A stretch of 64,000 nt of DNA. It comes from Paraphotobacterium marinum. Lineage in GTDB: Bacteria > Pseudomonadota > Gammaproteobacteria > Enterobacterales > Vibrionaceae. Position numbers and translations under genes: made by a program. The notes beneath the pieces were generated by a model. That model saw only the letters and a program-made list of their open reading frames with translations. It was not told the origin of the DNA and searched no databases. The stretch is from the NCBI RefSeq assembly GCF_002216855.1, contig NZ_CP022355.1, positions 434,001 to 498,000 of the forward strand, given 5' to 3'. How positions within the stretch are numbered: position 1 is the first letter of the stretch; the number at the start of each line of letters is the position of its first letter. Positions 3,955 to 58,616 of the stretch are shown in pieces.

Positions 3955-5111
3955 TTAATTTAAATAATAACCTTGCTGCTCCAGTACTTTTTTTATAACT
4001 GAAATACAAGTAATGACATTTTCTTCATTTGTGCCAAACCCCATTAATCCAACCCTCCACGTTTTGCCTAAAAAAGTTCCTAAACCAGAACCTATTTCAA
4101 GATTATAGTCATTTAATAATGTTTGTCTAAATGAGATATCATCAATACCTTCTGGTATATAAATATGATTTAACATAGGTAATCGATAATTTTCATCTTT
4201 CACGACATATTTTATTCCAATAGCATTTAAGTTTCCATTTAGTAACTTGTATGCTTTTTGATGTTTTTCATATAAACGACTCAATCCAATGTTTTGAACA
4301 ACAACTAATGCTTCATGAAGGGCATAAAGCTGATTAACTGGAGCGGTATGATGATAACTTCTCTTTTTTTTAGTTTTTTGATCTGCATCAAGCCAATATT
4401 CACCAAGCAAATTTAAATCTAGAAACCAGCTTTGTACCTTTTCTTTTTTTGAGCAATTTTTTTTAAAGCTTGTTCAGAAAATGTTATAGGTGACAACCCT
4501 GGAACACAAGATAAGCATTTTTGAGAGCCTGAATAAGCTACATCAATCCCCCAAGAATCAACCTCCACTGGAATACCTGCCAATGAAGTTACACAATCAG
4601 CAATTACTAAACAGCCAAATTTTTTTCCAAGTTCGGCAATAGCTTTTGCATCATTCATAACGCCGGTTGACGTTTCAGCATGAACAAAAGCTAAAATTTT
4701 TATTTCAGGATCTCTATTAAGCACCTCCTCAATTGAGGCTAAATCAGTTTGTTCACCCCAATTATTATTGACCTCAATTGGAATTCCCCTACATCTAAAA
4801 ATATTTTCTTTCATTCGTTGTCCAAAAACACCATTAATACATACTAAAACTTTATCTCCAGGTTCAATCATATTCACAAATGCTGCTTCCATTCCTGCGC
4901 TTCCTGGCGCAGAAATGGCAAAGGTTGCTTTATTATCCGTTTGAAATGTATACCTTAAAAGAGTGCTAACTTCTTCCATCATTTCAATAAATAAAGGATC
5001 TAAGTGCCCTATGGTTGGTCTTGATAATGCATGAAGAACTGACGGATAAATTGGAGATGGACCAGGTCCCATCAATAATCTATGTTTGGGGTTGAAGGAT
5101 TTTATTGTCAT
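3955..5111 (-). pseudogene. Class V aminotransferase (serine/alanine-glyoxylate type), frame interrupted
   Basis: This is a PLP-dependent fold-type I aminotransferase of the alanine-glyoxylate/serine-pyruvate family. The upstream part (4419-5111) carries LLMGPGPSPIYPSVL, SAPGSAGMEA, the PLP aspartate region VIADCVTS and the PLP lysine in SGSQKCLS. The downstream part (3955-4410) carries KRSYHHTAPVNQLYALHEAL and the small C-terminal domain GIGSGLG-like segment with TWRVGLMG. Both parts join into a 385 aa protein if one A is added to the seven-base A run (T 4444-4450 on the plus strand). The joined sequence reads QKKEKVQSWFLDLNLLGEYW, as expected. The break sits at A AAA AAG, the dnaX-type slippery heptamer, in the correct phase, so -1 slippage would also restore it. 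It could be a true pseudogene, a sequencing error or a recoded gene. The exact substrate is not fixed by sequence. Confidence 0.85.
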
Positions 5112-5224
5112 ATTATTGCAAACCTGTAATATTTTTTTTATTTAAACATTGACAATACACAAAGAAAGATTATTTTATATAGACTTGGTCAAATACTGTG
5201 ATAAATATAACATTACATATTCGA

Positions 5225-5397
5225 TTAGAAGAGGTGCGTATTTCAGGTAGTCATATTTTTAAAGACCTAACTTTAGTGATGATATGATCAGGGGAAATTA
5301 CGCCGAGGTATTGATTAAATTAGGAATATTGATATCGGCAATGAAGGCTGAATCCTTCATGCTGTCACTTAAGGAATAAAAAGTGTTGAGCTTCTAA
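5225..5397 (+). promoter_or_regulatory. Lysine riboswitch (L box) upstream of lysC
   Basis: This 173-base stretch in the lysC leader carries conserved L-box blocks: AGAGGTGCG near the 5' end, AGGGGAA then CGCCGAGG in the middle, and GGCTGAATCCTTCATGCTGTCACT towards the 3' side. The ends close as a perfect seven-base P1 helix (TTAGAAG at 5225-5231 with CTTCTAA at 5391-5397). In the known family, lysine binding represses the downstream gene. A weak hairpin (AACGA/TCGTT, 5401-5415) followed by ATTTTTAG could be the expression platform, but translational control is also possible. It lies 100 bases before the lysC start. Confidence 0.85.
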
Positions 5398-5497
5398 TAA
5401 AACGAACGATTCGTTATTTTTAGTTTATTATTTTTTAATTCAATTCGAGCTCCATAATTAAATCAAAAAACACTATATTATATAACGGAGATTTATT

Positions 5498-6923: not shown

Positions 6924-9900
6924 TTATAAATTTGGATTAATCCATTTTATAATTTCTTTGTCATCCCAGTTCTTTCGTGCTTTATAAGAATCTATTTGAT
7001 CTTTTTGTATTTTAGAAATACTAAAGTATTTGGATTCAGGATGAGAAAAATACCAACCTGATACTGAAGCTCCTGGCCACATAGCTCCATTTTCGGTTAA
7101 CTTCATTCCAGTAGATTTTTCAACATTAAGTAAAGACCAAATTTTGCTTTTTTCAGAGTGATCTGGACATGCTGCATAACCAGGCGCTGGTCTGATTCCA
7201 GTATATTTCTCTCTTATAAGTTCATCGTTATCAAGAGATTCATTGGAAGCATAACCCCAATATTCTCGTCTTACAATCATATGCAAGTATTCTGCAAAAG
7301 CTTCAGCAAGCCTATCGGAAAGAACCTTCAACATAATTAAGTTATAATCATCACCATCTTTCTTATATTGCTCAGATAATTTTTCTTCACCCAAACCAGC
7401 TGTTACAGCAAATGCACCGATCCAATCTTTATTCATTGAATTTTGATTTATGATAAAATCCGAAAGACAATAATTAAATGAATTCTTTTTTCTGTTTGTT
7501 GTCTTAAAAAATTGAGTCTCAATGTTTCAATACTTCTGTCTTCGTCACTATAAATGATAATGTCTTCTTTATCACTATGCGCAGGAAAAAACCAAATACA
7601 CCTGATGTCTTTAAAAGTGAATTCTTTTCAATTAAATCCAACATAGCATTTGCATCACTATAAAGCTTCTGAGCTTCGTTTCCTACCAAAGGATGCTTTA
7701 GTATTTTTGGAAATTTTCCTGATAAGGACCAAGACATAAAAAAAGGAGTCCAGTCAATATATTTTCTTAGAATTGAAATTGACACATTATCTAATACTTT
7801 AACACCCAAAAAATTAGGTACCGGAGGCAAATAATCTTCTTTTATTAAAAATGAGTTTTTCTGTGCTTCTAAAAATGATATGGGTTTATTTTTTGTCTTT
7901 TTATTTAAAATTTGATTTTTAGCAACCTGATATTCAGTATTAATTTTATCTAAAAAAATATTTTTTTTGTTTATTGATAATAGTTCTGAACAGACACCTA
8001 CAGCTTTTGATGCATTCGATACATACACAACACCTTTATCATAATGTTCGACAATTTTAACGGCTGTATGGGCTTTTGAAGTTGTTGCGCCACCAATTAA
8101 TAGCGGAACGCTAAAGTTCCTTCTCTTCATTTCTTTTGCTACAAATATCATTTCATCTAAGGAAGGAGTAATCAAACCACTTAATCCGATAATATCTGCT
8201 TTAATTCTTTCAGCTTCATCTAGTATTTTATCGCAAGGTACCATAACACCCATATCAACAACATCATAATTATTACACTGAAGAACAACAGCAACAATAT
8301 TTTTACCAATATCATGCACATCACCTTTAACAGTTGCAAGTAATATTTTACCTCTTGATTTAACGTTGCTTTTTTCTTCGTGTAAAAATGGCTCTAAATA
8401 TGCAACGGCCTTTTTCATGACTCTTGCTGATTTAACTACTTGTGGTAAAAACATTTTACCTTCACCAAAAAGATCACCGACAATATTCATTCCATTCATT
8501 AATGGACCTTCGATAACTTTTAAGGGAATGCCAAGTAGTTGTCTCATTAATTCGGTATCCTCTTCTATAAAGTCCGTGATTCCATTGACTAATGAATATT
8601 CTAATCTTTTGGTAACATCCCAATGTCTCCATTCTTTTAATTCTTTATCATTTGATTTTTTTTGTCCTGCAAATTTTTGAGCTTCCTCAATTAAAGTTTC
8701 AGTAGCATTTTCATTAAGGTTAAGAATGACTTGTTCAACCTTTTCTTTAAGTTCAGCAGGTAAGTCATCATAAATGGCCAATTGCCCAGCATTGACTATT
8801 CCCATCGTCATTCCATTTTTAATCGCGTGATACAAGAAGACAGCATGTATGGCTTCTCTAACTACATTATTACCTCTGAATGAAAAAGAAACATTTGAAA
8901 CTCCTCCAGATATTAACGCATAAGGTAAATTTTCTTTTATAAAGTGCGTCGATTTTATAAAATCAACTGCATAATTATTATGCTCATCAATCCCAGTTGC
9001 AACAGCAAAAATATTTGGATCAAAAATGATATCTTCTGGAGGAAAGTTGTTATTTATTAGGAGGTTATAAGCCCTTTGACATATCTCAATTTTTCTAGCA
9101 TAAGTATCAGCTTGTCCTACTTCATCAAATGCCATTACAATTACAGCTGCGCCATATAACCTTAAAAGATTTGCTTGACTAAGAAAAATTTCTTCTCCTT
9201 CCTTTAAGGAAATTGAATTAACAATACATTTACCCTGAACACATTTCAATCCAGACTCTAATATTTCCCATTTAGATGAATCAATCATGAATGGGACTTT
9301 GCAAATATCAGGCTCCGTTGCACATAAATTTAAAAACTTAACCATTGCACTTTCTGAGTCAATCATACCTTCATCCATATTGATATCTATGATTTGAGCT
9401 CCATTTTCAACTTGCTCTCTTGCAACAGAAAGTGCTTCCTCAAAGTTTTCTTCTTTTATTAATCTCTTAAATTTTGCAGATCCTGTAACATTGGTTCTTT
9501 CACCGACATTGATAAATAAGGAAGAATTAGATATATTTAAAGCCTCTAATCCAGACAACCTACAGAATTTTGGTTTTTTATTGACAGCACGAGGTTCAAA
9601 CCTTTTTGTCAACTCAGACAGTGCTTTTATGTGTTTTGGTGTCGTACCACAACAACCACCAATGATATTAACTAATCCTTTTTGACACCATACTTCCACA
9701 TATTTGCACATATCTTTTGGGGTCAAGTCATATTCACCAAAGGCATTGGGCAAACCAGCATTTGGGTGAACAGAAACTAAGTTTTCAGAAATATTTGATA
9801 AATTTTCTAAGTAAGACCCTAACTCCTTTGGTCCAAGTGCACAGTTTAAACCAAATGATAAAGGCTCTACATGTCTCAAAGAATTATAAAATGCTTCAGT

Positions 9901-10578
9901 TGTCTGACCTGATAAAGTTCTACCTGAAGCATCTGTAATTGTTCCAGAAATCATTACAGGAAGAGATTTGTTATTCTTTTGAAAGTACTTTTTTAATGCA
10001 AACGCACAAGCTTTTGCATTTAGTGTATCAAAAATGGTTTCAATTAAAATTAAGTCTACGCCACCGTCAACTAAACCTTTTAAAGATTCTGAATAACTTA
10101 CCACCAAGGAATCAAAGTCAATATTTCTAAAACTTGGATCGTTAACATCAGGCGAGATTGAACAAGTTCTATTGGTTGGACCAATGACACCAGCGACATA
10201 TTTTTCGGTATCAATTAACGGATTATTTACAATCCAATTTTCTATACATTTTTTTGCTAATTTGGCAGCCTCAAAATTTAGTTCATAACTCATAGACTCC
10301 ATATCATAATCGGCTAAAGCCACTGAGTTAGAGTTAAATGTATTAGTTTCGATAATATCAGCGCCTGCCTCTAAGTATTGATAATGGATATCATATATTA
10401 GTTCAGGTTGCGTTAGGGTTAAAAGATCATTATGTCCTTTTAAAGATAAATGCCAATCTTTAAACCTATTTCCTCGATAGTCTGATTCATCTAATTTGTG
10501 TTGCTGAATCATTGTTCCCATTGCACCATCAAGAATCAATATTTTTTCTTTAGCCCTCTCTCTTAATTGCTTTTTCAT
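6924..10578 (-). pseudogene. metH: Cobalamin-dependent methionine synthase MetH, frame interrupted twice
   Basis: MetH transfers a methyl group from methyltetrahydrofolate to homocysteine through cobalamin. The main frame (7519-10578, 1019 aa) contains the homocysteine domain with zinc ligands in [10 protein letters not shown], the pterin-binding domain ([16 protein letters not shown]), the cap, and the cobalamin domain with the histidine motif [11 protein letters not shown]. The reading frame then breaks at two six-base runs (A 7586-7591 and T 7486-7491, plus-strand coordinates). Adding one base to each gives a continuous 1218 aa protein (E. coli 1227) that includes the reactivation domain with RPAPGYAACPDHSEK and GASVSGWYFSHPESKYF. 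The protein therefore looks complete apart from these indels. If they are real, the adenosylmethionine-binding reactivation domain is lost and the enzyme would lack repair after cobalamin oxidation. Confidence 0.9.
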
Positions 10579-11499: not shown

Positions 11500-12624
11500 T
11501 TAAACTAACTCTTCATCCAATGTAAATATATTCAATTTGTTATCTTGTTGTTCTTTAGCCCAGCTCTTACCGCACTGATTAAAAATATCTATTGTATTCA
11601 CATAACCTTTAGTCCTATGATCTTTATACGTGAATTTATTAAAATTATAATCCTTACTTTCAAGCTCTGCCTTCTCTGAATGATATATTAAATGGACAAT
11701 ATCTAAACTTTTTAATCGACCCAACTTTAAAACTTCTTTTACTTTAGGGTTTTTTTTGGCGTCTTCAGGTAAAAATTCTCCAAGGTAGGATATAGCAGCA
11801 CATAAATTTTCAGATGTCGAATATAAATTAGTCGCTCTTCTGGTTCTTGACGCAAATTGAATATCTTTGATTCTTTCTGCTAAAGCATTCATGTTAGTTG
11901 GAAGTTCTCCTTTTGCAGAAAACAAATCAACCATGAAACAAAGAATATCTCTGTTATCAATAGGACAAGTTAAAATCCGATCTAAAATTGAAATAATAGG
12001 TGTGTTTGAATATAATCCACCATCTATATAATACCTTCCATCAATTTCTACAGGTGGAAAACCTGGAGGCATTGCTCCACTAGCCATAATATGTTCTGCT
12101 CTAATTGTTTCACTGAAACTATCGAAAACTTTAAAATCACCAGTTTCTAAATCAACAGCACAAAGACTTAAACGAACATGTTTTTTATTCAAGTATTCAA
12201 AATCGATAAGTTCTTCTAAAGTTTCTTTTAAAGGAGATGTGTCGTAATAACTCAAGTTTTCAACTTTGTCATTTCCAAATTCACTTGGCCAAAGCTTAGG
12301 TTTAAAAAAACCAGGTTGTCCATGCCATAATGCACTATGAGCTCCCATCAAGTTTCTCAATTTCTTATCAAAGTTATCAAAAAAATCACCAAAAGGAACG
12401 GCAGTAGTAACTCTATCCCAAAAAATCTCAAGATTTTTAAGTCTATTCTCTGGCTTATTACCAGCAATTATAGCTGCATTAATAGCACCAATTGAAATAC
12501 CTATGATAGAATTAGGTGAAAACCCCTTTTCTTTTAGAGCTTGATAAGCACCGAGTTGATAAGAACCTAGAGCACCGCCACCTTGAAATACATACACAAC
12601 TTTTCTTTTTGTTTGATTACTCAT
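11500..12624 (-). CDS. Patatin-like phospholipase family protein
   Basis: This is a 374 aa serine lipid acyl hydrolase of the patatin fold. The oxyanion motif GGGALGSYQLGAYQAL is at about residues 15-30, the nucleophile elbow GISIG at about 42-46, and the catalytic aspartate in YYIDGGLYSN at about 200, giving the usual Ser-Asp dyad. The C-terminal region (about 250-370) resembles the extension often found on patatins encoded beside 3-hydroxybutyrate dehydrogenase. There is no signal peptide, so it is probably cytoplasmic. It lies between bdhA and adc; a role in releasing hydroxybutyrate or fatty acids from storage material is plausible but not shown. Confidence 0.9.
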   Translation of the reverse strand: MSNQTKRKVVYVFQGGGALGSYQLGAYQALKEKGFSPNSIIGISIGAINAAIIAGNKPENRLKNLEIFWDRVTTAVPFGDFFDNFDKKLRNLMGAHSALWHGQPGFFKPKLWPSEFGNDKVENLSYYDTSPLKETLEELIDFEYLNKKHVRLSLCAVDLETGDFKVFDSFSETIRAEHIMASGAMPPGFPPVEIDGRYYIDGGLYSNTPIISILDRILTCPIDNRDILCFMVDLFSAKGELPTNMNALAERIKDIQFASRTRRATNLYSTSENLCAAISYLGEFLPEDAKKNPKVKEVLKLGRLKSLDIVHLIYHSEKAELESKDYNFNKFTYKDHRTKGYVNTIDIFNQCGKSWAKEQQDNKLNIFTLDEELV

Positions 12625-17231: not shown

Positions 17232-17588
17232 TTATTTTTTAATAGGCTTGCGCGGACCTTTACGGGTACGTGCATTAGTTTTTGTACGCTGTCCACGTAA
17301 AGGCAGACTGCGACGATGACGAAGCCCTCTATAACAACCAAGGTCCATCAAACGCTTGATACTCATAGAAACTTCACGACGTAAATCACCTTCAACAGTA
17401 TATTTTGCAACACCATCACGAAGCTGATCGATTTGTTCTTCATTTAGTTCACTGATCTTAATGCTTTCAGGTAATGAACACTCAGCTAAGATTTTCTTAG
17501 AACGAGTTTTTCCAATACCATAAATTGCAGTTAAAGCAATAACTGCATGCTTATGATCAGGAATGTTAATGCCTGCTATACGGGCCAT
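17232..17588 (-). CDS. rpsM: 30S ribosomal protein S13
   Basis: S13 is a head protein of the small subunit that bridges to the large subunit. The 118 aa product begins [26 protein letters not shown] and ends with the basic [18 protein letters not shown] tail. It is the first gene of the alpha operon. Its first codons (ATG GCC CGT) form part of the S4-binding pseudoknot, and a GGAG ribosome site precedes the start. Confidence 0.98.
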
Positions 17589-17647
17589 TATTCACTCCTA
17601 GTATTTTCAGAAGAATCACTGCAGAGCCCGTTATGGATACACAGTGA
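17580..17647 (-). promoter_or_regulatory. Alpha-operon leader pseudoknot (S4 autoregulatory site)
   Basis: On the minus strand the stem TCACTG/CAGTGA (17642-17647 with 17616-17621) encloses AACGGGC (17626-17632). ACGGGC in that loop can pair with GCCCGT covering the second and third rpsM codons (17580-17585). This is the arrangement of the known gammaproteobacterial alpha operon ribosome-binding-site pseudoknot, where S4 traps the 30S subunit and represses rpsM-rpsK-rpsD-rpoA-rplQ. Confidence 0.75.
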
Positions 17648-17671
17648 CTTTGCTCTTCTTCATTAAAAGAC

Positions 17672-22851: not shown

Positions 22852-22861
22852 TTTAAGCTCC

Positions 22862-50243: not shown

Positions 50244-52880
50244 ATGAACACTACATCAAAAAATTTAAAATCAAATATTAATATGCTTGGGCGATTGCTA
50301 GGTAACATTATAAAAAAAGTTCATGGGGAAGAGTTATTAGCCAAAGTAGAGCAAATTAGACTTTTATCAAAATCTGCGTTATCGGGTAATCCAAAAGATA
50401 AAGAACTTCTAATTAATACTTTACAAGGTCTTTCTACGGAAGAAATTTTACCTGTATCTAGGGCGTTTAGTCACTTTTTAAATTTAACAAATATTGCCGA
50501 ACAATTTAACACGATATCAAAAAAATCGGAGATGTCGATTTGTGATTTGAAAGGTATTGATCACTTACTTAACAAGCTTAAGAATAAAGCTGAAGATAAA
50601 GATGTAAAAAAAGCTCTATCGAATCTAAAAATTGATTTAGTTCTTACAGCTCATCCTACTGAAATAACAAGAAGAACTATCATCCATAAATTAATTGAAA
50701 TTAATGATTGTCTTAAACAATTAGAACTTGAGGAAATTTCTGAGTTTCAACAAAACTCTTTAAGTTGTAGACTAGAGGAGTTAATAGCTCAGACATGGCA
50801 TTCTGATGACATAAGGAAAACAAGACCCACTCCAATTGATGAAGCTAAGTGGGGTTTTGCGGTAATTGAAAACTCGCTTTGGGAAGCTGTCCCCAAATTT
50901 TTAAGACTTCTTGATAATAAGTTACAAAAAAATTTCGGATATAAATTACCCGCAAATAAATCTTTAATAAACTTCTCTTCATGGATGGGAGGAGATAGAG
51001 ATGGAAATCCATTTGTTACTTATGATGTGACAAATAAAGTTCTTTTAATGTCGCAATGGAAGTCTTCAGAATTATTTCTTGGTGATTTGGAGCTTTTGAT
51101 AACAGAGCTATCGATGATAAAAGCAAACGAGCAGCTCACACACATCACAAACAACTCAAATGAACCCTACCGATATGTCCTCAAAAAATTAAAACAAAAA
51201 CTTCTTAAATCTAAAAAATATTTAAGTCTAATTTTAGATGATGAAAAAGTGACTGAACCGATAAACTCTCAAAAATTAATCAGCCAAGATGAGTTACTAG
51301 AACCTCTAATGTCATGTTATAAATCACTTGTTGATTGTAATATGGAAAATATAGCCAATGGGTATTTACTTGATACCATAAGAAGAGCTCATTGCTTTGG
51401 GATTAATTTACTAAAGCTTGATATTCGCCAAGATAGCGAAAAACACTTGAATGCAATTAATGAAATAACTTCTTACTTAAAAATCGGCTCTTATGAAGAG
51501 TGGGATGAGAAAAAGAAAATAGAATTTTTAATTAAAGAAATAGATTCTGAAAGACCGTTACTGCCCTTAAAGTGGAATCCCTCAGAGGAAACTCAGGAAG
51601 TACTTAATACTTTTAAAATGTTATCATCTCATGATAAAAATTGCTTTGGTGCATACGTTATATCTATGGCAAAAAATGCTTCAGATATACTTGCTGTGCA
51701 TCTTTTATTAAAGGAACATTCGATAAAAGCATATATGCCTGTCTGTCCTTTATTTGAAACATTAGATGATTTAAATAACTCATTTAATATAATGCAATGT
51801 TTGTATAATACAACTGAATATTTATCTTTGATCTCTAAAGAACAGATGATAATGATCGGATACTCTGATTCAGCTAAAGATGCAGGCGTTTTGGCCTCAG
51901 GCTGGGCACAATATAAAGCCATGGAGTCTCTTATTTGTTTGAGCAACAAAAATAACATTAAACTTACTTTATTTCACGGAAGAGGTGGCTCAATTGGTCG
52001 AGGAGGTGCTCCTGCTCATGCTGCTTTACTATCCCAGCCGCCCCAAACCTTGCAAAATGGCTTAAGGGTTACAGAGCAAGGAGAAATGATTCGCTTTAAG
52101 TTGGGTTTACCTGATGTTGCGATTAATAGTTTACTCTTGTATACAAGCGCTATCTTAGAGGCAAATATTTTACCACCTCCTTCTCCAGACAAGAAATGGA
52201 GAGACATTATGGAAAGTTTATCAATTAATTCGTGTAATGCTTACAGAGATATTGTAAGACATAACTCATCATTTATTGATTATTTTAGAAAGGCAACCCC
52301 CGAAATTGAGCTGGGGAAACTTCCTCTTGGCTCTCGTCCTGCAAAGCGCAAACCTAATGGTGGTATAGAGAGCCTCAGGGCAATCCCTTGGATATTTGCT
52401 TGGAGTCAAAATAGACTGCTCTTGCCTGCCTGGCTTGGTGCAGGAGAAGCTATTAAAAAATCTATAGACCAAGGAAATACAGCTGATTTAGAAGAAATGT
52501 GCCAAAAATGGCCTTTTTTTTCAACACGTTTAGGAATGCTTGAAATGGTTTTTGTTAAAGCAAATGCTCTTATTTCTGAGTATTATGAAAAAACATTAGT
52601 AGATGATACTCTGTGGAGTTTAGGTCAAAGTTTAAGAGAACAATTAAACGAAGATATACAAACTATTTTACAAATAGAAAACTCTCAGCATCTAATGTCT
52701 CAAAACCCTATTGGAGTCGAAAGTATAAAACTAAGAAATATATACGTAGAGCCACTTAATATGCTCCAAGCTGAATTGCTCAAAAGAACAAGAAATCAAA
52801 GCAAACCAAACTCTGTTTTAGAAGAGGCATTAATGGTTACCATGACAGGTATTGCTGCAGGCTTAAGAAATACAGGCTAA
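50244..52880 (+). CDS. ppc: Phosphoenolpyruvate carboxylase
   Basis: Ppc carboxylates phosphoenolpyruvate to oxaloacetate, refilling the TCA cycle and feeding the aspartate family. The 878 aa product (E. coli 883) has the catalytic histidine in [12 protein letters not shown] (about 138), [32 protein letters not shown], the arginine loop [24 protein letters not shown] and the C-terminal RNTG. The next gene is the aphA-like regulator, the same adjacency I recall in Vibrio cholerae. Confidence 0.97.
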
Positions 52881-52894
52881 AATTTTTGCTGATA

Positions 52895-52946
52895 TTTGTA
52901 CCAACTAAAATAATATAGTATATTTACTATTTTATGTTGGTACAAA
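52895..52946. promoter_or_regulatory. Long inverted repeat abutting the aphA-like start codon
   Basis: Perfect eleven-base arms TTTGTACCAAC (52895-52905) and GTTGGTACAAA (52936-52946), with inner A/T arms AAAATA/TATTTT, end three bases before the ATG. As RNA it would form a long hairpin covering the ribosome-binding region; as DNA it is a two-half-site operator. No T-run follows, so it is not a simple ppc terminator. Confidence 0.7.
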
Positions 52947-52949
52947 TAA

Positions 52950-53455
52950 ATGTCACTTCCCTATGTTATTCTTACAATTCTTAAAGATAATGACTCTACA
53001 GGTTATGATGTTACTAAGAAGCTGTCTGGTACAATTGGCTTATTTTGGAGTGCTAGCCATCAACAAGTTTATAGAGAACTAAATAAAATGCTCAAAATGA
53101 GTTGGGTTAACTCATCATTTTTTCCACAACAAGGAAAGCCTGACAAAAAAATATACTCTTTAACTGAAATGGGTGTTGCCGAGTTAACAAAGTGGGTTGA
53201 ATCCCCAATTAAAGAGCAAGTTATGCGAGATGAACTTTCATTGAAAATTTACGCAGCACAAAAAATTAATAATCAAAACATAAAAAAACAGCTTCACCAA
53301 GATCTTAAAAAAGACAACAGGAATTGATTTTATTAAGAAAAAAAGGTGAGCAATCCAGTTCTCTTAAACCTCTCGATGAATTATACATAAAAAGAAATTT
53401 ATATGTATTAGAGGCTGATATTAAATGGATTAAACAAGCTATTTTAATTCTTTAA
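52950..53455 (+). pseudogene. aphA: PadR-family regulator resembling AphA, frame interrupted
   Basis: AphA in vibrios is a PadR-type winged-helix regulator active at low cell density in quorum sensing. The first part (52950-53327) begins MSLPYVILTILKDNDSTGYD and includes SHQQVYRELNKM and QQGKPDKKIYSLTEMG, very like AphA. It stops early; adding one A to the six-base run at 53297-53302 opens the frame to 53455 with RQQELILLRKKGEQ and LYIKRNLYVLEADIKWIKQAI, the usual C-terminal helical dimerisation region. The repaired product is 168 aa against about 179 in V. cholerae. If the break is real, the dimerisation helices are lost. It is convergent with metF, with five bases between stops. Confidence 0.85.
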
Positions 53456-56246: not shown

Positions 56247-56310
56247 AGTTTTAACCTCAAATAGAAGTCCGTATCGCTCTCCTAAACCTAGCTAGGCACC
56301 ATACGTTATT

Positions 56311-56424: not shown

Positions 56425-58616
56425 ATGAAAATCAAAAATAAAGTTGTGAATGTGGCGCTTCCTATCCCATTGAAACAATGCTTTCAATATATTAACTGTT
56501 CTGAAAAGAATGATATTATTGGATACTCAGTTTCTGTTCCTTTTGGGAAAAGAGTTCTCAAAGGTATCGTTATAAGTGAGGTTAATACCCCAATCACTAA
56601 AAATTTGAAAACAATTCTAGAAGTAATTGGGAGCCTTCCTTATTACTCACAAAAAGAAATTGATTTTTTTTTCTAATAGCAAAATATTATCATTACCCAC
56701 TAGGTCAGTTAATATCAAAAATACTTCCCATTCAAGTTGACAATCAAATACCGATTATCAAAGAGTATAGTTTAAATAAAGATCTAACTAATCATCTAAA
56801 CTTAATACCCAAAAGAGCTTTTAAGCAACAGCAAATAATCAACTATTTAATGACAAATAAAGTTTATCACTCAAATTCAAAACAATTTAAAAAAGACTTT
56901 CCGATTATTAAAAAGTTAATTGATAAAAACATTATTGTGTATACAAAATTCGAACATAAAGTTGAAGAAATCAAAAAAATCGACAAAGCTGATATTATTA
57001 ACTCAACAAATAAGGTTTACTTAAATCAGGAACAAAAACATGCTATTGATTCGATAGACCATTTTAATCTTTTTCAAGTATATTTACTTTATGGTATAAC
57101 CGGTTCTGGTAAGACAGAAGTCTTCTTAAATTTAATAGAAAAAGTTCTTCTAAATAACAAAAAAATCATCTATTTAGTACCTGAAATTGGATTAATTCCA
57201 CAAACAAAACATAGAATTCAAAAGAGATTCAACTGCCCAGTTTATGATTACCACTCTGAAATAAGAGTCTCTGAAAAAAAATTAATTATAAATGAATGTA
57301 AAACAAGAAAACCATTAATTATTGTAGGAACAAGATCCACAATTTTTCTTTCGATAAATGATTTAGGTATGATAATAATTGATGAAGAACATGATTCCTC
57401 ATATAAACAACAAGATTCATTTCGTTACAATGCAAGAGATATAGGAATACTTAAAGCTAAAATTTACAATATTCCTGTTGTTTTAGGATCCGCAACACCA
57501 TCATTAGAAAGTCTTAACAACGTCAAACAAAATAAATATAAATTATTAACTCTATTAAAAAGAGCATCAAACCTTGAGTTACCAAGGATAACGATTTATG
57601 ACATTAAAAATACATTTAATAAATCTGGTATATCTGATTTTTTATTAAATAAAATTAAAATACACATCAATAACAATAAGCAAGTATTAGTATTTTTAAA
57701 TAAAAAAGGATTTTCTGACTCGTTAATTTGTAACGAATGTGGATGGATCAGTGAGTGTGAAAGATGTGAAAAATTCTATACACTATATATGAACAGTAAA
57801 AAATTAAAGTGTAATTATTGCTTGCATGAAAAACCTATTGATATCCAATGCCTTTCCTGTGGCTCAACACAACTACATCCTTTGGGCTTTGGAACAGAGC
57901 AAGTACAAAAATATTTGGAAGAAAGCTTTCCAAACAAGAAAGTTATACGCCTGGATGGTGAAAGTACAAAAGATAAATCAAAATTTTTAAATACTCTAAA
58001 AGATATAGAAAATAAAAATTATGATATTATTATTGGAACTCAATTAATTACCAAGGGACATCACTTTAAACATGTTACTCTCTCTGCATTAGTGAATGTG
58101 GATTCAGCTCTTTTTAGTAATGATTTTCGTGCAATTGAAAAATTAAATCAGCAAGTAATACAGGTCTCTGGCAGGGCCGGAAGAGAGTCTTTTAAAAGCG
58201 AGGTTATAATACAAACACACTTTCCCGAACATTCTTTTTTTTCAATTATTAAACAACAAAATTATCTGGATATTTCAAAAAACTTACTAAAAGAAAGAGA
58301 GATATATAATCTACCACCATTTAGTAATCACATAATATATCGCTCAAAATCAATTAATAGCGATGAAAGTTATGAATATTTAATGATTTTAAAAAGTTTT
58401 ATTAATAAACAAAATAAAAACATATTAACTTTAGGACCGTCCCCTGCTAGTATTAGAAAGAAGGCTGGATTATATCGATGGTTGCTAATTTTACAACATG
58501 ATAAAAAGAGTGAACTTTTTAAAGTAATTAATGAAGTTGAGCTTTTTATTTCAAGGAATAATTTAAAAAATAAAGTTAAATCCTCTATAGATATTGACCC
58601 TCTTGAATCAACCTGA
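56425..58616 (+). pseudogene. priA: Primosomal replication helicase PriA, frame interrupted
   Basis: PriA restarts stalled replication forks. The first part (56425-56676) is the 3' DNA-end binding domain (VNVALPIPLKQCFQY, SVPFGKRVLKGIV). The frame stops at a run of nine T bases (56664-56672). One extra T continues it as FLIAKYYHYPLGQLISKILP, and the rest follows with Walker A GITGSGKTEVF, DEEHDSSYKQQDS, the eight zinc cysteines (CNEC, CERC, CNYC, CLSC) and QVSGRAGR. The repaired protein is 730 aa, against 732 in E. coli. Since PriA is close to essential, a sequencing error or slippage at T TTT TTC is more likely than loss. Confidence 0.92.

Follow-up and report, generated by a model that had tools for sequence, protein, structure and literature searches.

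The stretch of DNA considered here, called the window below, is the 64-kb region of bases 434001-498000 on contig 1 (1,426,504 bp) of the Paraphotobacterium marinum genome, which comprises 2,593,992 bp in 3 contigs. It carries a ppc gene, an inverted repeat and an aphA gene in this order on one strand, and metF follows aphA on the opposite strand (Table 1). That the gene beside ppc is an orthologue of AphA, as the earlier note on this DNA had proposed, we regard as confirmed by comparison of sequences: its N-terminal domain is of the PadR-type DNA-binding family (PF03551, 50.1 bits against a cut-off of 27), its product matches AphA of PDB entry 1yg2 with an E value of 3.2e-33 over residues 1-115, which is the best match among nine PDB sequences, and ppc (NF000584) precedes it in the same orientation, here as in 91 of 102 relative loci. 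The tetrapeptide MSLP begins 101 of the 102 relative proteins, and the start of aphA is therefore well supported.

Table 1. Features of the window (positions counted from its first base)
Feature	Position	Strand	Basis or remark
ppc, phosphoenolpyruvate carboxylase, whole	50244..52880	+	NCBIfam NF000584, 1069 bits against a cut-off of 815
Hairpin, taken as ppc 3′-end hairpin	52893..52948	+	Perfect 13-base arms TATTTGTACCAAC (52893-52905) and GTTGGTACAAATA (52936-52948); starts 12 nt past the ppc stop
aphA, open over 125 aa (DNA-binding part plus the beginning of the C-terminal region)	52950..53327	+	PF03551; PDB 1yg2
Remainder of the broken dimerisation region: open in a different frame, letters resembling the AphA C-terminus	53309..53452	+	Profile search, E 0.06, weak
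Lysine riboswitch	5221..5401	+	Above Rfam gathering score
Alpha-operon ribosome-binding-site leader	17556..17654	-	Above Rfam gathering score
L31 leader	56254..56305	-	Above Rfam gathering score

AphA-like genes were met in 23 of the 41 genomes searched (this genome counted), and no relative was met in viral contigs. In a search of genome contigs, at least 522 relatives of the query stand among the matches listed, and 80 named loci were retained. The set used for comparison consists of 102 aphA loci, in which some strains are doubled because they occur in two collections and some genomes are represented more than once; four distant PadR loci (L022, L023, L025 and L026) and the self matches (L028 and L029) were left out before counting. 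One of the distant loci, L025, belongs to this same genome: it is a second, intact-looking PadR-type gene at 883678-884013 of contig 1, with 29% identity to the AphA described here.

What kind of structure is the inverted repeat in front of aphA? The earlier note had described a 52-base repeat with perfect arms of 11 bases, ending three bases before the ATG. The repeat is real, and it is stronger than first described: its perfect arms are of 13 bases, 30 nt apart (43 bp from centre to centre), and a single base (52949) separates its end from the ATG at 52950. As to the bounds of the whole feature, a start at 52895 had cut the left arm short by two bases, and an end at 53302 did not reach the frame break described below. 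The 56-mer is predicted to fold with -21.3 kcal/mol (z -7.2), a stability reached by none of 200 shuffled sequences, and the 30-nt middle folds as well (-5.2 kcal/mol, equally low in 22 of 1000 shuffles), so that we are dealing with a near-continuous hairpin and not with two isolated arms. With respect to intrinsic terminators, the hairpin has the position, just past a stop codon, but not the T-rich tail, since at most three T are found in eight bases around the stem end, and a terminator scan of the region returned none. Thus, it is not a textbook intrinsic terminator. Such repeats, defined by arms of at least 11 bases and a loop of at most 40, number 13 in the window, whereas ten first-order random sequences yield 0-3 each per 64 kb; they are therefore also common in this genome. 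A mobile or repeated element was considered and rejected: the hairpin has no second copy, and its only other match is its own complement.

The spacer between ppc and aphA is 69 bp long here, while it ranges from 233 to 671 bp (median 408) in the 91 relative loci where ppc precedes aphA on the same strand inside the available DNA; in one of these (L017) the ppc match ends early and the spacer comes out too long. In the 90 loci whose ppc match extends to the gene end, we searched for a hairpin downstream of ppc with a stem of at least six pairs, at least three of them G-C, not more than 75 nt from the stop. All 90 loci have one, at a median distance of 25.5 nt (range 5-70), and in 87 of the 90 it is followed by a T-rich tail, which is absent here; in dinucleotide shuffles a hairpin past the ppc stop appears in only 7-15 of 90. 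Under the same rule the present hairpin is missed with loops of up to 10 nt, because its perfect arms stand 30 nt apart, and is detected with loops of up to 40. Within 500 nt upstream of aphA in the 102 relative loci, the best match to either arm has two to four mismatches per locus, which is the level of shuffled sequences. Neither the arms nor the hairpin sequence is conserved, an outcome which the earlier note had itself named as speaking against its proposals, and homology of this hairpin to the ppc hairpin of relatives is therefore one of position only.

Is a hairpin at a gene end something peculiar to ppc, or is it common in this genome? The window and twenty 20-kb stretches, together 464 kb of chromosome I, contain 64 repeats of the kind defined above, and 45 of them lie outside any open frame of 100 aa or more. 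Among these 45 intergenic repeats, 22 lie within 30 nt past a stop codon, against a mean of 5.6 and a maximum of 12 in 200 trials of random placement. The stop-proximal placements number 24; eight have four T or fewer in eight bases at the stem end, the hairpin after ppc among them, and 14 have six or more. These counts indicate that hairpins at gene ends are habitual in this genome, and that a third of them lack a good T tail. Abutment to a start codon is not clearly such a habit: four of the 45 are found no more than 5 nt from a start, where random placement gives a mean of 1.6 and reaches four in 21 of the 200 trials. Another start-abutting repeat was seen at 11927-11964 of the stretch L141 (about 311927-311964 of contig 1), with 17-base perfect arms and a loop of 4; a 387-aa frame on the - strand has its first start 5 nt after it.

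The earlier note was also right in seeing no ordinary ribosome site before aphA. No Shine-Dalgarno-like triplet precedes its ATG, and the GGA that is found between -18 and -4 in all of the 102 relative loci is missing here. It is to be noted, however, that this absence is a weak sign of regulation, because among the 302 open frames of 100 aa or more that begin with ATG in the 464 kb, with starts assigned mechanically, just 189 have a Shine-Dalgarno match of even three letters and 88 one of four.

The aphA gene itself is out of frame in its distal part. Frame 0 meets a stop at 53325-53327 and frame 2 is open to 53452, so that the frame is lost after about codon 120. The AphA-like C-terminal letters in frame 2 are the best among 1588 six-frame pieces, yet the match is weak. 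In the given sequence no intact C-terminal dimerisation region is present, and the broken dimerisation region that had been noticed before is confirmed for this sequence. The interval where the frame must change contains a run of six A, and the chance of such an A/T run per 19-nt stretch of the window is 0.058. A programmed -1 frameshift seems unlikely at this site: canonical slippery heptamers obey a phase rule, and the A run is apparently out of phase for one. Other genes of the window are split as well. priA extends over two frames (56425-56676 and 56850-58616 on the + strand) with the break inside a long T run, metH (6924-7436 and 7519-10578 on the - strand) shows two frame changes from about 7487 to 7591 near A/T runs, and a gene for a class-V aminotransferase (3955-4410 and 4419-5111 on the - strand) is broken near 4422-4449 beside A/T runs. 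The breaks of metH and the aminotransferase gene are those accepted among 59 conserved genes compared, and those of priA and aphA were detected separately; what looked like a break near 22852, in a gene for a ribosomal protein, is actually the rplN/rplX junction. The genome of strain NSCS20N07D was obtained from PacBio RSII reads by HGAP assembly, according to the accessible text of its report (PMC5649133). Since frames are lost near A/T runs in these other genes as well, the break in aphA may be a homopolymer error of this PacBio-only assembly, and frame breaks in it allow no biological reading without resequencing.

Does aphA nevertheless show signs of relaxed constraint? Its DNA-binding part is still open across the 125 codons, which speaks against an old decay. 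In comparison with the relatives, a mean of 0.46 of sites differ in the DNA-binding part of AphA and 0.30 in the end of PPC, while pairs among the relatives differ by 0.20 against 0.18 and 0.25 against 0.21. AphA thus appears to be more diverged relative to PPC than it is among the relatives, which is compatible with relaxed constraint, although the comparison concerns these two genes alone, with no second regulator as a control, and is extrapolated because the PPC distance of this genome exceeds that of every pair of relatives.

Vibrio aphA is a gene under quorum-sensing control, and it is natural to look at what this genome keeps of that circuit. In V. harveyi and V. cholerae, as far as the accessible text of PMC3262071 describes it, Qrr RNAs activate aphA by pairing in a leader of about 200 nt, at a site about 130 nt upstream of the start. 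That position would fall within ppc here, and a spacer of 69 nt does not accommodate the leader described in that text. A search of this genome for Qrr (RF00378) with strict filters, under which 70 of 383 first-look candidates were scored, gave no match at E 0.1 or below, while 20 of 24 other genomes of the family have one over the cut-off. Neither is there a Qrr beside luxO, a place which it occupies in 12 of 14 relative loci. The best match to HapR/LuxR (NF040929) reaches 25.8 bits here, against at least 197 bits in 21 of 24 other genomes of the family, and a TetR domain model has two matches in this genome, neither of which is HapR by the NCBI cut-off. LuxO and LuxU are retained as best matches, each under its NCBI cut-off; their genes are kept at 121801-123180 of contig 1 (L032 and L041), adjoining a sequence which we take to be uvrB-like.

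How, then, has a strong hairpin come to stand at the very start codon of aphA? We think it likely that the repeat is the 3′-end hairpin of ppc, abutting an aphA gene that is orphaned and probably decaying. In relatives, a hairpin terminator after ppc is followed by several hundred bases which harbor the promoter and the leader of aphA. The spacer is supposed to have shrunk by deletion in this genome, bringing the ppc hairpin directly before the aphA ATG; since only 69 bp are left, there is no room for an aphA promoter, for a leader of about 200 nt with a Qrr target, or for a Shine-Dalgarno site. The hairpin would still end or protect the ppc mRNA, and aphA, deprived of its own promoter, leader and ribosome site, would be left to decay. 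As a by-product, the hairpin would keep ribosomes off aphA on RNA that reads through from ppc. An end-of-gene hairpin would in this manner resemble a start-codon regulator just because the spacer is very short. The locus can serve as an example of a gene neighbourhood that has collapsed in a reduced, AT-rich genome of the vibrio family, where luxO, luxU and a damaged aphA persist without a detected Qrr or HapR/LuxR.

Could the hairpin have been selected as a gate for translation? Here, read-through RNA from ppc would fold the hairpin and be untranslatable, whereas RNA from a promoter inside the repeat would lack the left arm and be translatable, by the logic of the lysozyme gene e of phage T4, for which the same arrangement is documented in the accessible part of PMC3014915. 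The end of the hairpin does coincide with the aphA ATG, and predicted pairing agrees with the idea: on an RNA from 52800, bases 52936-52948 are unpaired with a probability of 0.00-0.29, and this rises to 0.43-0.91 on an RNA starting at 52931 and to 0.52-0.89 on one starting at 52906, while 52952-52955 are predicted to be mostly paired on all three. Since read-through RNA is predicted to be paired just ahead of the ATG, the hairpin would hinder translation from it, and to this extent the earlier suggestion of an RNA hairpin blocking translation is plausible; its position, though, is already explained by the end of ppc. Moreover, a promoter scan located no site on the + strand of the spacer (its one site in the spacer region, 52956-52929, is on the - strand; the region as a whole has 5 sites against 3.9 in shuffles), start-abutting repeats show no clear enrichment in this genome, and the gate would control a protein that is broken in the sequence as given. 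We therefore consider a selected gate unlikely. A mixed history is more doubtful still: the gene-end hairpin of ppc might have been co-opted as a gate after loss of Qrr and of the aphA leader, so that synthesis of a shortened AphA depends entirely on a promoter inside the repeat. If this were true, control of aphA would have been rewired from quorum sensing to the origin of the transcript.

The DNA operator of the earlier note, with the arms as half-sites of a regulator about four helical turns apart, suits the perfect 13-base arms and their spacing, but it has become very improbable. The half-site, with up to one mismatch, has 74 matches in the genome (both arms counted) against 86 for its reversed control, so that a regulon marked by it can be rejected, too; no second copy of the repeat exists, the arms are unconserved in the 102 relative loci, and the middle pairs as well, which an operator does not need. 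Least of all can we give credence to an opening of the hairpin by a small RNA of the Qrr type, as for vibrio aphA, the other proposal of that note, because the retained luxO and luxU and the pairing known from the accessible text of PMC3262071 stand against a spacer without room for the target, no Qrr found by the searches above and no HapR/LuxR.

It is worth comparing the locus with the systems to which it has been likened. The V. cholerae AphA of PDB 1yg2 aligns over residues 1-115, while the C-terminal region is out of frame here after about codon 120. The aphA leader of V. harveyi and V. cholerae, as described in the accessible part of PMC3262071, precedes the same gene, and structure near the start is thought to hinder translation there as it might here, while the long leader, the room for a Qrr target, a detected Qrr and HapR/LuxR are all lacking in this genome. 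With T4 gene e, in so far as the available text of PMC3014915 goes, the locus shares a helix at the translation start that forms on the longer read-through RNA only (by prediction in our case); it differs in that the scan finds no promoter inside the repeat and in that the gene product is broken in the given sequence. In comparison with the intrinsic terminator of ppc in Vibrio and Photobacterium, the hairpin has no T-rich tail, its stem is longer and interrupted, with 30 nt between the perfect arms instead of a short loop, and aphA comes directly after it. The position is nevertheless alike, just past the stop codon of ppc, as in every one of the 90 relative loci.
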